Shown: positions 6,370 to 61,275 of the stretch, one piece after another
How the letters are laid out: each line of letters begins with the position of its first letter
Numbering within the stretch: position 1 is the stretch's first letter
Assembly (NCBI RefSeq): GCF_028369105.1
Contig: NZ_JAQNDO010000001.1
Location: forward strand, 12,866,501-12,930,500
Origin: Polyangium mundeleinium
Lineage (GTDB): Bacteria > Myxococcota_A > Polyangia > Polyangiales > Polyangiaceae
Direction of reading: 5' to 3'
DNA: 64,000 nucleotides
Position numbers and translations under genes: made by a program
The notes under the pieces: generated by a model
Seen by the model: the letters and a program-made list of their open reading frames with translations, nothing else
The model's database searches: none
What the model was told of the DNA's origin: nothing

Positions 6370-6993
6370 TTACCCTTCGCCTCGGGCGCGCGTGAGCCCG
6401 TCGAGCAAGCGCCCGTGCGCGAGGTCCGATGCGGCGCGTACGTCGGACACGCCGAACGGAGCGAATGCGCCGGACATGGCGAGCACCGCGAGGCCCTGGT
6501 GCATTGCAAAGACGGGGATCACGTAGGAGAGCGCCTCGCCTTCGCCGAAATACCCCGCCGCCTGGGCCTCCGCGATGTAGCGATAGAGGAGGCCGAGGCT
6601 GCGCTCGCGGCCGTTCACGAACGCAGGGTCGTTCGGATCGGCGTCGGCGGAGAACATCGCCTGGAAATACCCGGGGTGCTCCATCGCGAAGCGCACGTAC
6701 GCATGCGCGGCCGCGAGGAAACGCGCGCGGAGGTCCGGGCCCGCCGCCGTGAGCGCCGCGTCGACCGCGTCCGCGAGGCGATGCGCCCCCTCGGCCGCGA
6801 GCGCCGTGAGCAGCGCCCGCTTGTCCGCAAAATGCCGGTACGGCGCCGCATGCGAAACGCCGACCCGACGCGCGAGCTCGCGAAGCGTGAACCCCATCGG
6901 CCCATGCTCCTCGATGAGCGCGAGCGCGGCCTCCCGAAGCGCGCGAGGCAGATCCCCATGGTGGTACGGGCGAGGCGGCGGACGTCGAGGCAC
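6370..6993 (-). CDS. TetR/AcrR-family transcriptional regulator
   Basis: The product is 207 residues. The N-terminal helix-turn-helix (about 12-60) reads ALREAALALIEEHGPMGFTLRELARRVGVSHAAPYRHFADKRALL in shortened form: LRELARRVGVSHAAPYRHF. The C-terminal half resembles the WHG (TetR_C_33) ligand domain, with EHPGYFQAMF and GLLYRYIAEAQAAGYF. It is divergently transcribed from the flavin-dependent dehydrogenase gene at 7128, and a dyad lies between them. It probably represses that gene and perhaps itself; this is inferred from the arrangement. The ligand is unknown. Confidence 0.92.
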   Translation of the reverse strand: MPRRPPPRPYHHGDLPRALREAALALIEEHGPMGFTLRELARRVGVSHAAPYRHFADKRALLTALAAEGAHRLADAVDAALTAAGPDLRARFLAAAHAYVRFAMEHPGYFQAMFSADADPNDPAFVNGRERSLGLLYRYIAEAQAAGYFGEGEALSYVIPVFAMHQGLAVLAMSGAFAPFGVSDVRAASDLAHGRLLDGLTRARGEG

Positions 6994-17541: not shown

Positions 17542-17641
17542 GAAGGGGCTTCGCGACCGCCGCGAAGGTGCCTCGTGACGCGCGTGCGCCCGCCGCGGGC
17601 GCCGCGACGGCGTCGGTGGAGCTACGGGGGAGGTGTTCGAG

Positions 17642-17783
17642 GGCCGGGATGCCGTCGAGAGGGCGAGGGGATCGCTTCGCGGGGGTCGGGATGCCGTCGA
17701 AGCGGCGACGAGGTCGCTTCACGACGGTCGCGATGCCGTCGAGGCGGCGACGAGGTGGCTTCGCGACGGTCGCGGAGGCGAGG
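17642..17783. repeat. 42-bp tandem repeat, about 3.4 copies
   Basis: Units start at 17642, 17684, 17726 and (partial) 17768, each beginning GG(T/C)CG(G/C)GATGCCGTCGA. Period is exactly 42 bp, so all frames stay open through it; a short leftward frame would encode a DGIATVVKRPRRRF-like 14-mer repeat. It fills the 294-bp gap between the sulfatase-like gene and the large signalling gene. No start or ribosome-binding site makes a coding role convincing. Confidence 0.8.
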
Positions 17784-17835
17784 CGTAAGGTACGGAGCGG
17801 CTTCGCGAGCGAGTTGCCGTGCTGGAAGCGGAGCC

Positions 17836-33993: not shown

Positions 33994-35157
33994 ATGGCGC
34001 GACTTCGTTGGATGACAGCGGGTGAATCTCACGGCCCTTCGCTGGTGGCCATCGTCGAAGGCATCCCGGCCGGGATGCCCCTCCTCTCCCAGGACGTCGA
34101 TCACGACCTCGCACGACGTCAACGCGGGTATGGCCGTGGCGGGCGCATGAAAATCGAAACGGACCAGGCCCAGCTCGTCGGCGGCGTCCGGGGTGGCGAG
34201 ACCCTGGGCGGCCCCATCGCCCTCCGCATCGACAACCGCGACCACGCCAACTGGGCCGGCCGCATGGGCCCGGACCCCTTCCCCGCGCCCCCCGAACCCC
34301 TCACCCGCCCCCGCCCCGGCCACGCCGACCTCGCGGGCGGCCTCAAGTACGACCGCAAGGACCTCCGTGACATCCTCGAACGGGCCAGCGCCCGCGAGAC
34401 CGCCTCCCGCGTCGCCGTCGGTGGCATCTGCCGCAAGCTCCTCGCCCTCCTCGAGATCGACATCTTCGCCCACGTCGTCTCCATCGGCTCGGTCACGGCC
34501 ACCCTCCCCGACCTCCCCTTCTCCGAGCTCCGCGCCCGCGCCCGCGCCTCCGACCTCGCCTGCGTCGACCCCGACGCCGAGCCCGCCATGCGCACGGCCA
34601 TCCACGAAGCCTCGCACGCCGGCGACACCCTCGGCGGCGTCTTCGAGGTCATCGCCACCGGACTCCCGCCGGGCCTTGGCAGCCACGTCCAGTGGGACCG
34701 CAAGCTCGACGGCCGCCTCGCCCAGGCCCTCATGAGCATCCACGCCATCAAGGGCGTCGAGCTTGGCCTCGGCTTCACGGCCGCCACCCTCCGTGGCTCG
34801 CAGGTCCACGACCCCATCACCTACGACCCGGCCCACCACTTCGACCGACCCACCAACCGCGCCGGCGGCCTCGAAGGAGGCATCACCAACGGCATGCCCC
34901 TGATCTGCCGCGCCGCCATGAAGCCCATCGCCACCCTCCGACGAGCCCTCCCCTCCGTCGACGTCCACACCAAGGAACCGTTCGACGCCGCGCACGAGCG
35001 CAGCGACATCTGCGCCGTCTCCGCCGCCTCCGTCGTCGGCGAGGCCATGGTCGCCATCACCCTGGCGGACGCCGTCCTGGAGAAGTTTGGAGGCGACAGC
35101 CTGGGGGAGCTTCGGCGCAACGTGGAGACCTACCGCGCGCAGCTCGCGGCGTACTGA
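33994..35157 (+). CDS. aroC: Chorismate synthase
   Basis: The product is 387 residues and carries out the last step of the shikimate pathway using reduced FMN. Motifs: WMTAGESHGPSLVAIVEGIP, RRQRGYGRGGRMKIE, RASARETASRVAVGG and RPTNRAGGLEGGITNGMP. It is divergent from the DUF167 gene. The next rightward gene is the fused aroKB, but 717 bp of repeats separate them. Its 3' third is strongly C-rich at wobble positions. Confidence 0.96.
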   Translation: MARLRWMTAGESHGPSLVAIVEGIPAGMPLLSQDVDHDLARRQRGYGRGGRMKIETDQAQLVGGVRGGETLGGPIALRIDNRDHANWAGRMGPDPFPAPPEPLTRPRPGHADLAGGLKYDRKDLRDILERASARETASRVAVGGICRKLLALLEIDIFAHVVSIGSVTATLPDLPFSELRARARASDLACVDPDAEPAMRTAIHEASHAGDTLGGVFEVIATGLPPGLGSHVQWDRKLDGRLAQALMSIHAIKGVELGLGFTAATLRGSQVHDPITYDPAHHFDRPTNRAGGLEGGITNGMPLICRAAMKPIATLRRALPSVDVHTKEPFDAAHERSDICAVSAASVVGEAMVAITLADAVLEKFGGDSLGELRRNVETYRAQLAAY

Positions 35158-35163
35158 CCAGGA

Positions 35164-35179
35164 CGTTTCACGTGAAACA
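35164..35179. other. parS centromere-like site 1
   Basis: The 16-mer CGTTTCACGTGAAACA differs from the consensus ParB site TGTTTCACGTGAAACA only at its first base. It lies 6 bp after the aroC stop codon. All four copies in this window share the 20-mer ACGTTTCACGTGAAACATCC. Confidence 0.93.
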
Positions 35180-35191
35180 TCCGGCCTGACC

Positions 35192-35526
35192 CGACCTCGA
35201 GCTTGCCCTCGCCCATCTCTGCGCCCCGCAGACATGTACCCGAGGTCACCCTCGCCCATCTCTGCGCCCCGCAGACCAGCCTCCAAGCTTGCCCTCGCCC
35301 ATCTCTGCGCCCCGCAGACCCACCTCCAAGCTTGCCCTCCACCATCTCTGCGCCCCGCAGACCCACCTCCAAGCTTGCCCTCCACCATCTCTGCGCCCCG
35401 CAGACATGTACCCGAGGTCACCCTCGCCCATCTCTGCGCCCCGCAGACCAACCTCCAAGCTTGCCCTCCACCATCTCTGCGCCTCGCAGACCAACCTCCA
35501 AGCTCGCCCTCCACCATCTCTGCGCA
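35192..35526. repeat. 43-bp tandem array, about 7.8 units, each with a short hairpin
   Basis: CATCTCTGCG starts at 35214, 35257, 35300, 35343, 35386, 35429, 35472 and 35515, giving an exact 43-bp period. Each unit contains the dyad TCTGCG-CCC-CGCAGA; the unit at 35472 has a loop change (CCC to CCT) but keeps the stem, and the last unit is degenerate. Units have two interchangeable arms: GACATGTACCCGAGGTCACC (units 1 and 6 style) or a CCTCCAAGCTTGCC-containing arm. The period is not a multiple of three, so it is not a peptide repeat. It lies between aroC and aroKB. Confidence 0.93.
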
Positions 35527-35573
35527 TGTCCAACCCCACCCCAACCGCGGAGGCATGGTCCTGTGCTGGACCG

Positions 35574-35830
35574 GAGCGGAGGGGGTGTCGGGCGGCGGGA
35601 GGTCGGGGGGGCTGGGGGGGGGACCCGTTGTCTGAGCGAGCCACGCCCTACCTCTCGAAACCCCACACCCCAACCCTCACCCACGTGACCTAGCCGGTGG
35701 GCGACATCCATCCCCTCCCGGGTCTTGCCCAAACCTCGACACCCTCCCAATCCGTCCGGCGTGGCTCGCGAGTTCGGGTGGGGCCCCCAGCCCCCCCGAC
35801 CTCCCGCCGCCCGGCGCCCCCTCCGCGCTC
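35574..35830. repeat. Long inverted repeat with ~73-bp arms
   Basis: The left arm (35574-35647) and right arm (35758-35830) are inverted copies. They include a perfect 30-bp block (35589-35618 with 35784-35813) and a perfect 12-bp block (GCGAGCCACGCC, 35636-35647, with GGCGTGGCTCGC, 35758-35769). The loop is about 110 bp. It lies between the 43-bp array and aroKB, whose ATG is 45 bp downstream. The arms are extremely G- or C-rich (runs of seven to nine G). Confidence 0.88.
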
Positions 35831-35874: not shown

Positions 35875-37506
35875 ATGCCTGCGCTCCCCATTCCCCAGCC
35901 TCGCCCCCAGCGTCCCCTCCTCCTCTCCGGACTCATGGGGTCTGGCAAGTCCACCATTGGCCCCCTCGTCGCGGCACAGGCGGCTGTCCCCTTCCTCGAC
36001 CTCGACGCCGTCATCACGCAGACCACCGGCCGCTCCGTACCGGCCCTCTTTGCTGAACCTGGCGGCGAGCCAGCCTTCCGCGCCCTCGAGGCCGACACCC
36101 TTCGTCGACTCCTCGCGTCTCCCGAGCCTCGCGTCATCGCGCTCGGCGGCGGCACCCTCCTCGACCCGGAGCTTCGCGCGTTTGCCCTTGCCCACGCGCA
36201 CATCGTCACCCTCACGGCGCGACCCGACACCCTCGCTGCGCGCACGGCGGCGCCCGGTCGACCCCTCCTCGACGAAGCCCCCGACCGCCTCCAGCGCCTC
36301 CGCGGCCTCCTCGCCTCCCGCGGGCCCGTCTACGCCGAGGCCCATGCTCACCTTCGCACCGATGATCGCTCCCCGGACGATGTCGCCGATGCTGTCCTGC
36401 GTGCCTGGCTCGACCCTACCCTCGTCGTCCCGCTCGGCGCTCGGTCCTACCCGGTCCGCCTCACCCACGACGCCCCGCGCACCCTCGCCGAGGTCGCGCG
36501 TACCCTTGCGCCTTCCGCCGTCTTCGTCGTCACGGATGAGAACGTCGCGCCGCTCGCGCTCGAACCGGTCCTCGATGCTCTCCGCACCGTGGGCCTCCGC
36601 GTCCCGGCCACCGTCGTCCTTCCGCCCGGTGAGCCCCACAAGCAGCTCCCGGCGGTCGAGCGTATCCTCGCGGCCCTCGTCGAGTCGGGTGCGGACCGGG
36701 AGTGCCTCGTCGTTGCCCTCGGCGGGGGGGTCGTCTCCGATGTCGCCGGGTTTGCCGCGTCCCTTTTGCTTCGTGGCGTCCGGTGGGTCGCGATGCCCAC
36801 GACCTTGCTCTCGATGGTTGATGCCGCCGTGGGTGGGAAGACCGGCGTCGACCTCGGGGTCGCCAAGAATGCCGTTGGCACCTTCCACCAGCCCTCGGCC
36901 GTGCTCATCGACCCGGCGCGCGTGCAGAGCGAGTCCCCCCGGGCCTACGTCTCCGGCCTGGCCGAGGTCGTCAAGGCGGCGGCCATCGCCGACCTCTCCC
37001 TCTTCGAGCTCGTCGGCCGGGAGCGCACGCGTGTCCTTGCCCGTGACCTCGACCTCGTTCGGGAGATGGTCCTCGGCGCGGTCCGGGTGAAGACGGAGAT
37101 CGTCTCCCGCGACGAGCGGGAGTCCGGCGATCGGGTCCTTCTCAACTTCGGCCACACCATCGGGCATGGGCTCGAGGCGGCCGGCGCTTACACCCGCCTC
37201 ACCCATGGCGAGGCCGTCTCGCTCGGCATGGTCGCCATCCTGCGTGTCGGTCGCGCCCTCGGCGTCACCGACCCTGAGGCGGCGGCGCGCATCGAGCGCC
37301 TCCTCGTTGACCTCGGCTTGCCCACCGACCTTTCCCGTGAGCCCATCGACGAGGGCCTTCGCCTTGCCGCGCTCGACAAGAAGCGCACCGTGGCGGGCAT
37401 TCGTGTCGTCCTCCTCGAAGGCCTTGGACGACCTCGCATCGAGCTCCTCTCGCTCGACGCGCTGGGGCGCCTCCTTCATGCGGGGATGCAGAGCGCTTCC
37501 GTCTGA
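35875..37506 (+). CDS. aroKB: Fused shikimate kinase / 3-dehydroquinate synthase
   Basis: The product is 543 residues. Residues 1-175 are shikimate kinase, with Walker A LSGLMGSGKSTIGPLV and the shikimate-binding segments LDLDAVI and ALGGGTLLDP. Residues about 180-543 are 3-dehydroquinate synthase, with the NAD-binding LPPGEPHKQL, VVALGGGVVSDVAGFAAS, PTTLLSMVDAAVGGKTGVD and the metal-binding NFGHTIGHGLEA and RLTHGEAVSLGM. Both halves look complete, so two non-consecutive shikimate-pathway steps are joined in one protein. It follows aroC in the same direction. Confidence 0.95.
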   Translation: MPALPIPQPRPQRPLLLSGLMGSGKSTIGPLVAAQAAVPFLDLDAVITQTTGRSVPALFAEPGGEPAFRALEADTLRRLLASPEPRVIALGGGTLLDPELRAFALAHAHIVTLTARPDTLAARTAAPGRPLLDEAPDRLQRLRGLLASRGPVYAEAHAHLRTDDRSPDDVADAVLRAWLDPTLVVPLGARSYPVRLTHDAPRTLAEVARTLAPSAVFVVTDENVAPLALEPVLDALRTVGLRVPATVVLPPGEPHKQLPAVERILAALVESGADRECLVVALGGGVVSDVAGFAASLLLRGVRWVAMPTTLLSMVDAAVGGKTGVDLGVAKNAVGTFHQPSAVLIDPARVQSESPRAYVSGLAEVVKAAAIADLSLFELVGRERTRVLARDLDLVREMVLGAVRVKTEIVSRDERESGDRVLLNFGHTIGHGLEAAGAYTRLTHGEAVSLGMVAILRVGRALGVTDPEAAARIERLLVDLGLPTDLSREPIDEGLRLAALDKKRTVAGIRVVLLEGLGRPRIELLSLDALGRLLHAGMQSASV

Positions 37507-60068: not shown

Positions 60069-61028
60069 ATGCAGGCGTCGTGTGCGTCGTCGTCCATCGA
60101 AAGCAGGAGCCCGGAAGACACCATCCCGTCCGTCTTCCAGCCGCGCTCGTCCATGCTCCCGCCCCCCGCGGCGAACGAGGCCGAGACGCAGCCGGCGCCG
60201 TTCGCGCGCGAGAGCCACCCGACGATCCCCTATGAGCGCGCGAACCCCAAGTCCTGGTTCGCCAACCACAAGAAGCGCCGCAGGCTCGCGCGGCTCGACC
60301 TCGACGAGGAGAGCACCGAGAACGGCCGGCCCATGCCCGAGTGGTGCGTGGAGCACGGCGCCGGCCTGCGGGCCATGACCACGTTCGAGCTCTGGATGGC
60401 CCTCGCCAGGGGCGAGATCGAGGCCGAAACCTCGGTCTGGCGCGACGGGATGGAGGGCTGGACCCAAATCGCGCAGATCCCCGAGCTCGCGTATGCGCTC
60501 GCCGATTCGGTCTCGTTCGACCCGCTCCTCGTGACGCCCGCGCGTCTGCCGGACGTCGCGCTCACGTCGGCGCGGGGTGAGGCGAAGACGCCTTTGACCT
60601 TCAGCGGGGCCGTCGCGCAGACGGGGGACCCACCGCATGTACGGTCTCTGGAGGGGGACGAGACCCGCTCGGAGCCCATCTCGCTCCCTGTCCGGGCGTG
60701 GCCCTTCGGTCGCAAGGGTGGGTCCCGACGGTCTCTGGCAGGGCAAGGAGGGTTCTCCTTCGTGCTCGGGTGTGTCGTGGCGGTGACGGCCGTGGGTATT
60801 GCGCTCGTGCATCGAGGCATCGCGCCGGTGGTCCTGTCCGGGCAAGCTCCGGGTACGGACCCTCCCGCGCTCGTGGCCGGAGCCTCCGAGCTCGTGTCGA
60901 AGGTGGGGCAGAGGACGGCCGCGACCGTGCGGCAGACAGAGGCGACCCCCGTGGCGCCCCCTCCGCCCTCGGCGCGCCACCATACCGACCCTGGTCAGAA
61001 ACGATCACGACGGGGCGCGCGACGGTAG
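60069..61028 (+). CDS. GYF-domain membrane protein
   Basis: The product is 319 residues. A GYF_2-like domain (about 95-145: PEWCVEHGAGLRAMTTFELW, VWRDGMEGWTQIAQIPEL) is a protein-interaction module common in myxobacterial membrane proteins. One TM helix is at about 235-258 (FSFVLGCVVAVTAVGIALVH), followed by a Pro-rich, basic end. The ATG at 60069 has GAAGGGG at 7 nt; a TTG at 60048 is possible. The function is unknown. Confidence 0.8.
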   Translation: MQASCASSSIESRSPEDTIPSVFQPRSSMLPPPAANEAETQPAPFARESHPTIPYERANPKSWFANHKKRRRLARLDLDEESTENGRPMPEWCVEHGAGLRAMTTFELWMALARGEIEAETSVWRDGMEGWTQIAQIPELAYALADSVSFDPLLVTPARLPDVALTSARGEAKTPLTFSGAVAQTGDPPHVRSLEGDETRSEPISLPVRAWPFGRKGGSRRSLAGQGGFSFVLGCVVAVTAVGIALVHRGIAPVVLSGQAPGTDPPALVAGASELVSKVGQRTAATVRQTEATPVAPPPPSARHHTDPGQKRSRRGARR

Positions 61029-61130
61029 CGACCCTCTCTCGGGACCGTCGCGACCCTCCCCGGAGAGGGTAACGACCCTCCCAGCGACGGGAACGACCCT
61101 CCCTGGAGACGCTAACGACCACCTTCGCGG
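61029..61130. repeat. Array of ~22-bp direct repeats (CGACCCTC core)
   Basis: CGACC(C/A)(T/C)C-type cores start at 61029, 61051, 61073, 61094 and 61116, spaced 22, 22, 21 and 22 bp, about two helical turns. They start right after the GYF-protein stop and end 72 bp before the tRNA. They could be a phased protein-binding array or a remnant. Confidence 0.75.
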
Positions 61131-61201: not shown

Positions 61202-61275
61202 TCCGGCGTCGTCTAAGGGCAGGACGGGGGACTTTGAATCCCCTAATCATGGTTCGAATCCATGCGCCGGAACCA
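61202..61275 (+). tRNA. tRNA-Gln (anticodon TTG)
   Basis: A 74-nt cloverleaf including encoded CCA. The acceptor stem TCCGGCG/CGCCGGA is perfect, the anticodon loop CTTTGAA (61232-61238) has TTG at 61234-61236, and the T-arm CATGG-TTCGAAT-CCATG is standard. It reads CAA (and probably CAG) codons. Confidence 0.96.

Follow-up and report, generated by a model that had tools for sequence, protein, structure and literature searches.

A 43-bp tandem array between aroC and aroKB of Polyangium mundeleinium and a dispersed set of intergenic arrays with the same period

The tandem array between aroC and aroKB in Polyangium mundeleinium may be the local member of a dispersed intergenic family whose arrays keep their helical register, are probably bound by protein and turn over in sequence, a reading to which we give a probability of about 40%. 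In these arrays it is the 43-bp length that looks constrained rather than the small hairpin. Bacterial tandem repeats are usually defined by their sequence; here, across many loci of one genome and among six species at the aroC locus, it is length that is shared, not sequence. The pattern suggests that selection acts on the geometry of the DNA, or else that some unknown copying mechanism carries a ruler. The window referred to throughout is the whole stretch of 64,000 nucleotides that was analysed; its own genome is G000, one of six genomes of the genus (G000 to G005), among which G003 is Polyangium fumosum.

The array and its counterparts in the genus

TRF places the array at 35188-35525 (no strand assigned), with a 43-bp period, about 7.9 copies, 83% matches and 0% indels, which bears out the initial annotation of an ungapped 43-bp tandem array between these two genes. 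Its start lies 30 bp past the stop codon of aroC (chorismate synthase; 33994-35157, plus strand; Pfam PF01264, E 4e-115), and aroKB, a fusion of shikimate kinase and 3-dehydroquinate synthase (35875-37506, plus strand; Pfam SKI, DHQ_synthase and DHQS_C), begins about 350 bp past its end. Just 6 bp past aroC sits a palindrome, CGTTTCACGTGAAACA, at 35164-35179 (no strand; recognised by sequence only), the first of four such sites in the window; from the ParB consensus we take it to be a putative parS. The array begins 8 bp past this palindrome by the TRF start, or 12 bp if the count runs to 35192, in place of the 13 bp first given. No 43-bp array accompanies the other three parS-like sites of the window, and the exact 14-bp parS-like core occurs only four times per genome, in all six Polyangium genomes, so that arrays in general are not at parS.

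Within the array, the palindrome TCTGCG-CCC-CGCAGA is first met at 35218-35232 (plus strand). The sequence TCTGCGCCCCGCAGA is found exactly at 35218, 35261, 35304, 35347, 35390 and 35433, and the copy at 35476 carries the single loop change (CCT), with its stem kept, that had already been noticed. Read directly, unit 8 stops after the 5' half of the palindrome (TCTGCG, 35519-35524), the next bases being CATGTCC, and this truncated palindrome makes up the right edge of the array (35519-35525, plus strand); the eight full palindromes originally counted are seven full ones and one 5' half. Nor do the arms alternate between two types, as first described, since the second type, ATGTACCCGAGGTCA, occurs only in unit 2 (35231-35273, plus strand) and in unit 6 (35403-35445), which is the same unit, and the other six units carry variants of CCTCCAAGCTTG. 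A search with the unit finds seven places in its own genome, all within the aroC array (with one reversed-control match), and the palindrome extended by the four bases before it (19 bases, with as many as 2 mismatches allowed) has no site elsewhere in that genome. The genome-wide search suggested at the outset therefore gave a divided answer: 43-bp arrays of other sequence are common, as detailed below, and the exact unit is unique. At their gathering scores, Rfam models matched one tRNA only in the window, leaving the array without a match to a known structured RNA, and the array had no match in a plasmid collection.

AroC has a match in 38 of the 39 genomes searched (its own included), and the closest named relatives by this protein are Polyangium species, at 98% for P. 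fumosum. In all six genus genomes a parS-like site is followed by a 42/43-bp tandem array between aroC and aroKB; in several relatives from outside the genus that were read by eye, an aroK-like frame comes almost directly after aroC. The initial annotation had proposed a comparison of copy number, and among the six species it does differ, with the 43-bp (42/43) period kept and the units largely different: 43 x 7.9 in the window, 43 x 6.3 in P. fumosum (possibly a lower bound, because the array is cut by a contig end and a similar piece lies on contig G003:C182), 43 x 5.0 in G002, 42/43 x 2.3 + 11.6 in the two arrays of G004, 43 x 4.8 in G005 and 43 x 4.4 in G001. The P. fumosum region is split over these two contigs, the first of which ends about 120 bp past the array, and the similar piece is 80 bp long. 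The distance between parS-like site and array is variable, with about 0.8 kb of other sequence separating them in G005 and before the larger G004 array. In G004 (L039), two arrays of one family lie about 150-1350 bp past aroC and about 700 bp apart, with a small ORF between them that looks lipoprotein-like by eye; the intervening ~700 bp are probably an insertion into the array region. The sequence past the right edge of the array (CATGTCCAACCCCACCCC...) is common to the window and the G004 locus.

When units were compared as gapless circular profiles, the window array proved similar to that of G004, and the G002 array to that of G001, in both cases above all 3000 pooled null scores. The pair formed by G003 and G005 scores above every one of its 500 shuffles, yet its value of -0.6 falls below the 95% level of the pooled null, and three pairs that involve the G001 array are marginal (P 0.04-0.05), so that some distant relatedness among the arrays of this locus is possible. 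The nearest relative is P. fumosum, which shares 96.3% identity with the window in aroC and 92.7% in the neighbouring inverted-repeat region; the units of its array are unrelated to those of the window (P = 0.50), and the array has no match in the other five genus genomes. Because point mutation at such divergence would be insufficient, the arrays at the aroC locus appear to have been replaced or rebuilt. The locus offers a clean comparison of sister species, with conserved flanks, one period and different units.

A shared period across the genome and the length of the unit

Eighty evenly spaced 20-kb stretches of G000 were scanned together with the window, 1.664 Mb of 13.25 Mb in all. A strict scan (70% over 86 bp) gave 17 regions at lag 43; further lags not divisible by three were 86 (16 regions), 44 (four), 22, 85 and 88 (three each), 64, 65, 128 and 130 (two each) and single cases elsewhere, and lags that are multiples of three were frequent and mostly coding. 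The 17 strict lag-43 arrays all fall clear of called genes (overlap 0-1%), in a sample of which 89% was called coding by a simple hexamer script, trained on this same sample and applied unchanged, and less reliably, to other taxa. A looser scan of non-coding DNA (at least 60% over 86 bp) gave 24 regions at lag 43, 12 at 42, four at 44 and 16 at 63-66, the remainder falling at lags 30 (five), 48 (three), 36 (two) and 50, 54 and 60 (one each); over the 1.664 Mb it gave zero at lags 25-29, 31-35, 37-41, 45-47, 49, 51-53 and 55-59. Lag 43 is present in 21 of 364 intergenic regions of at least 150 bp and in none of five dinucleotide shuffles. Among non-coding repeat clusters, 40 of 45 include lag 21, 22, 42-44 or 63-66, some of these 40 being short-period or possibly missed coding sequence, as lags 21, 42, 63 and 66 are multiples of three. 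The 22 lag-43 clusters would extrapolate to about 175 per genome.

One array of this kind, represented by L148:1413-1800, L149 and L210, lies upstream of what we take, by eye, to be a sulfite-reductase-like gene. Its palindromes, of TCTG...CAGA type, recur roughly every 43 bp and are separated by stretches unlike one another; the array is conserved in three species and ends, again by eye, at a sigma-70-like promoter. A coding explanation of the arrays was considered and rejected: no called gene covers any of the 17 strict arrays, and substitutions in the sulfite-reductase array are without codon phase (14, 13 and 15). At least one of the six frames is open in 14 of the 17, which is unsurprising in GC-rich DNA. 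The arrays L131 and L121 were masked by overlap filtering in one TRF table and are present in the lag scans. Two further repeats called non-coding in the window, at 17580-17832 (lag 42) and at 61009-61130 (lag 22), the second just before a tRNA at 61202, fit a module of two helical turns.

Outside G000, a lag-43 peak is also seen in G001 (five of 36 intergenic regions), and 140 kb of G004 gave one strict lag-43 region, TRF showing only the aroC arrays of such a kind there. In G036, which belongs to another family of the order and is presumably Sandaracinus amylolyticus, lag 41 was found five times, lags 82 and 86 twice each and lags 43 and 62 once each. Lag-43 arrays were absent from 260 kb of G023, 140 kb of G024 and 172 kb of other Myxococcota contigs, and a mixed control set (mainly Firmicutes) had one region at lag 43 and an excess at 50-51. 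In its stretches L059-L117 (mainly Paenibacillus and Cohnella), self-matches in DNA called intergenic gave five regions each at lags 50 and 51 and two each at lags 100-102, a preferred period other than that of Polyangium.

Many of the arrays are related to one another in sequence. Gapless comparison of 27 arrays (351 pairs) put 28 pairs above 99.9% of the scores from shuffled columns; 23 of these join different loci and five represent the same locus across species. The L240 family is dispersed close to full length, with at least 11 more sites in G000 that match over 280 bp or longer (40 of 228 candidates scored), including the sampled L166 and L218, and L240 and L218 share, by eye, the start and end phase of the unit. 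Such relations between loci are what would be expected if the arrays were dispersed satellites, selfish or neutral, in which a 43-bp ancestor had spread between intergenic sites and been copied by slippage and recombination. This is a close rival to a protein-bound, helix-phased family, and we regard it as distinctly possible. The period would then persist by descent and not by function, because unequal crossing-over needs units in register. The presence of arrays in all gene-orientation classes and the turnover of unit sequence between sister species are also consistent with satellites.

The behaviour of unit length argues the other way. Across the 123 junctions between adjacent units in 32 arrays, length changes and substitutions stand at 11:731, against 28:230 in flanking non-coding DNA (P ~1e-9), a yardstick that is one region compared with three relatives and whose counts are therefore partly shared. 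The array rate of 0.015 length changes per substitution is near the 0.008 of coding DNA (17:2166), and this deficit counts against satellites. Six of the 11 changes fall in the G004 aroC array. Because detection was by period, and because recombination can bring in substitutions as blocks, the comparison is strong but not clean; the counts with the detection core left out, 8:415 across all arrays and 2:368 in G000 alone, reduce the bias from detection and block transfer and do no more than that. The deficit also holds where units are no longer alike, as in the sulfite-reductase array of G005 compared with that of G003, with 56 substitutions and 0 indels over 361 bp. Against G001, the same two arrays show 109 and 116 substitutions and 3 indels each, and one unit is 42 bp in G005 and G003 and 43 bp in G001; the exact 43-bp length is not obligatory. 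Helical phasing accounts more easily than satellites do for lags 21-22 and 63-66 and for lags 41, 62 and 82 of G036, and the window's own genome has no match to the Y1 (RAYT-type, PF01797) transposase, for which five of 14 control genomes are positive.

Transcripts, hairpins and guide RNAs

A different possibility is that the arrays act in the transcript, C-rich and G-poor stretches at gene 3' ends serving in Rho utilisation or in termination and insulation, with hairpins incidental. Arrays are indeed over-represented between convergent genes (7/44 intergenic regions against 14/455 others, P = 0.001), with ten among 262 co-directional and four among 193 divergent regions; these 21 arrays omit L172, one of the 22 lag-43 clusters, which lies at the edge of its stretch and has no left gene. 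The sense-strand C-over-G skew averages 0.15 in the ten co-directional arrays and 0.02 in 171 other co-directional regions (P = 0.05), and reaches 0.41 in the window array. Yet the four arrays between divergent genes and the opposite skew of three of the ten co-directional ones do not fit, and Rho loading gives no reason for a 43-bp period, so that we consider a transcript-level role improbable.

The initial annotation had inferred a selected RNA or DNA structure from the conserved stems. This is supported in part: what looks constrained is the 43-bp length, which fits a constraint at the level of DNA, and conservation of the stem is not borne out. An array of selected RNA or cruciform hairpins has several observations in its favour. 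The window array folds better than its shuffles (z -8.4 as RNA and -7.5 as DNA), with the caveat that copied units are counted as independent in these scores, and the TCTG...CAGA half-sites tend to persist in related sulfite-reductase arrays, where, however, the inner stem is often broken on one side only. Single-unit tests of the window palindrome are discordant: a perfect stem of at least 6 bp (loop 3-12) is found in 1.2% of shuffled units (P = 0.012), a looser single-centre dyad score gives P = 0.20, and self-complementarity of the whole unit gives P = 0.30. The identity of the stems within the window is not independent evidence, because the seven are copies of one another, and TCTGCG-CCC-CGCAGA is absent, by reading, from the locus in the other five genus genomes.

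The units in the other genomes may have inverted repeats of their own. Self-complementarity of the whole unit is significant (P < 0.01) in 13 of 27 arrays, with a mean z of 2.26 over the 27; these 13 include three sulfite-reductase orthologues, and two of the 13 rest on two units. Among the six aroC-locus arrays it reaches P < 0.01 in G002 and G001 and 0.06 in G004, and lies between 0.2 and 0.8 in the other three, the window included. The single-centre dyad score over the same 27 arrays is not above shuffles (mean z 0.38). As a matter of geometry, self-complementary units place dyads every 21.5 bp in the 13 arrays.

Covariation would be the mark of a conserved hairpin, and conservation of a hairpin within the array is not supported by it. 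In the 16 of 27 arrays judged well-phased, a set without, for instance, the sulfite-reductase arrays of G005 and G003, pairing within the same unit (375 of 1081 cells, 0.347) is no more frequent than pairing across units (0.343), and no compensatory variation of stems is seen. The few informative cells of the window alone are mixed, with 0.38 against 0.23 on one axis (24 cells) and 0.19 against 0.20 on the other (32 cells). A first, phase-mixed count of 45 rows had favoured same-unit pairing in several arrays, for example the G005 sulfite-reductase array (0.41 against 0.27). Since the pairing positions lack covariation, DNA dyads fit better than folded RNA, and the constrained 43-bp length likewise fits a helix-phased constraint on DNA better than a folded RNA; we think a selected hairpin array quite improbable. 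That the array is a source of guide RNAs, CRISPR-like or TIGR-Tas-like, is barely credible: a regular period, a short palindrome and variable arms, along with the unlike stretches between palindromes in the sulfite-reductase arrays, do recall such systems, but the window array has no diversifying spacers, its whole 43-bp units repeating with two main arm types, the intervening stretches of the sulfite-reductase arrays are conserved from one species to another, and the Nop domain (PF01798) of the Tas protein by which TIGR-Tas is defined has a match in none of the six genus genomes (four of 14 controls are positive).

A helix-phased family and its likeness to known systems

For a family of arrays held in helical register, the geometry is simple: 43 bp would correspond to about four helical turns and half the period to about two, so that successive units would face the same side of the helix. 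A putative DNA-binding protein, probably a dimer or oligomer, may occupy the array at fixed steps and in this way keep its length, perhaps in the manner of SopB, the ParB of F, on the 43-bp repeats of the F centromere. Because the palindromes differ between loci, one sequence-specific protein is unlikely. The self-complementary units of 13 of the 27 arrays speak for a protein-bound, helix-phased family; the lack of significant whole-unit dyad symmetry in the window array, the single-centre score at the level of shuffles and the lone strict lag-43 region in 140 kb of G004 speak against it. Recombination would homogenise the units within an array, and arrays would spread or replace one another between intergenic sites, with the result that sequence would change fast and the period would remain unchanged. 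At the aroC locus, we speculate that the array may add a nucleoprotein block beside the outermost of the four parS-like sites. A broader version, which we consider unlikely, is that a hundred or more arrays, bound by protein and made from a module of two turns (~21.5 bp), are spread over the chromosomes of Polyangiales, with register inherited, sequence nearly free and arrays of the same period swapped at sites, possibly organising the nucleoid and supplementing the centromere beside parS. If true, this would be a bacterial counterpart of satellite DNA.

The F plasmid provides a close parallel in period, its parS (parS(F)/sopC) being described as twelve 43-bp repeats with ten 16-bp inverted repeats, that is, with an inverted repeat in most units (PMC6238139, in excerpt). 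Like it, the aroC array is made of 43-bp tandem repeats; unlike it, arrays of the aroC type are chromosomal and occupy many loci with many unit sequences, and the inverted repeat of the window, 15 bp long against 16 bp in F and present in seven of eight units, is shared neither by the units of relatives at this locus nor by those of other loci. REP and BIME elements, which go with RAYT transposases, are dispersed, intergenic and often palindromic, with several families per genome. The Polyangium arrays share the dispersed, intergenic and often palindromic character and differ in their exact 43-bp head-to-tail period and in the absence of a Y1 transposase match from the window's own genome. In their head-to-tail intergenic copies the arrays also resemble VNTRs and minisatellites, and at the aroC locus copy number varies among species as it does in these, with units that differ. 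What sets the arrays apart from VNTRs is that they share one period despite unrelated sequence, that length changes are rare and that their lags fall near multiples of 21.5 bp. Judged by titles, abstracts and excerpts, none of the open-licence PubMed Central papers covered appeared to describe a class of intergenic arrays defined by length, and the excerpts of PMC8538405 and PMC9304148 held nothing relevant to 43-bp arrays.

Other repeats were encountered beside the arrays. At L240:6585-6666 lies another dispersed repeat: with a query starting at 6600, its leading 67 bp had matches at many sites across the genus, most of them at 80-95%. Next to it, at 6585-6613, is an inverted repeat whose perfect arms are 13 bp long and whose loop has 3 bases. 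At L226:1384-1418, a segment of some 33 bp, of CCGCGCTTCCGCCTCCGCCTCC type, also matches many genus places and may be of low complexity.

A long inverted repeat lies at 35573-35829 (plus strand; arms 35573-35647 and 35758-35829, 64 pairs), a neighbour of the aroC array and not part of it. Of the 64 pairs, 43 form one uninterrupted helix, and the RNA fold has a z of -7.8. The left arm has no second copy in the window's own genome at E 0.001. The structure is present between array and aroKB in all six genus genomes, and nine of its pairs show compensatory change among the six species, a number reached in 0 of 500 shuffles. It is possibly a leader structure of aroKB, or its arms may be kept alike by gene conversion.
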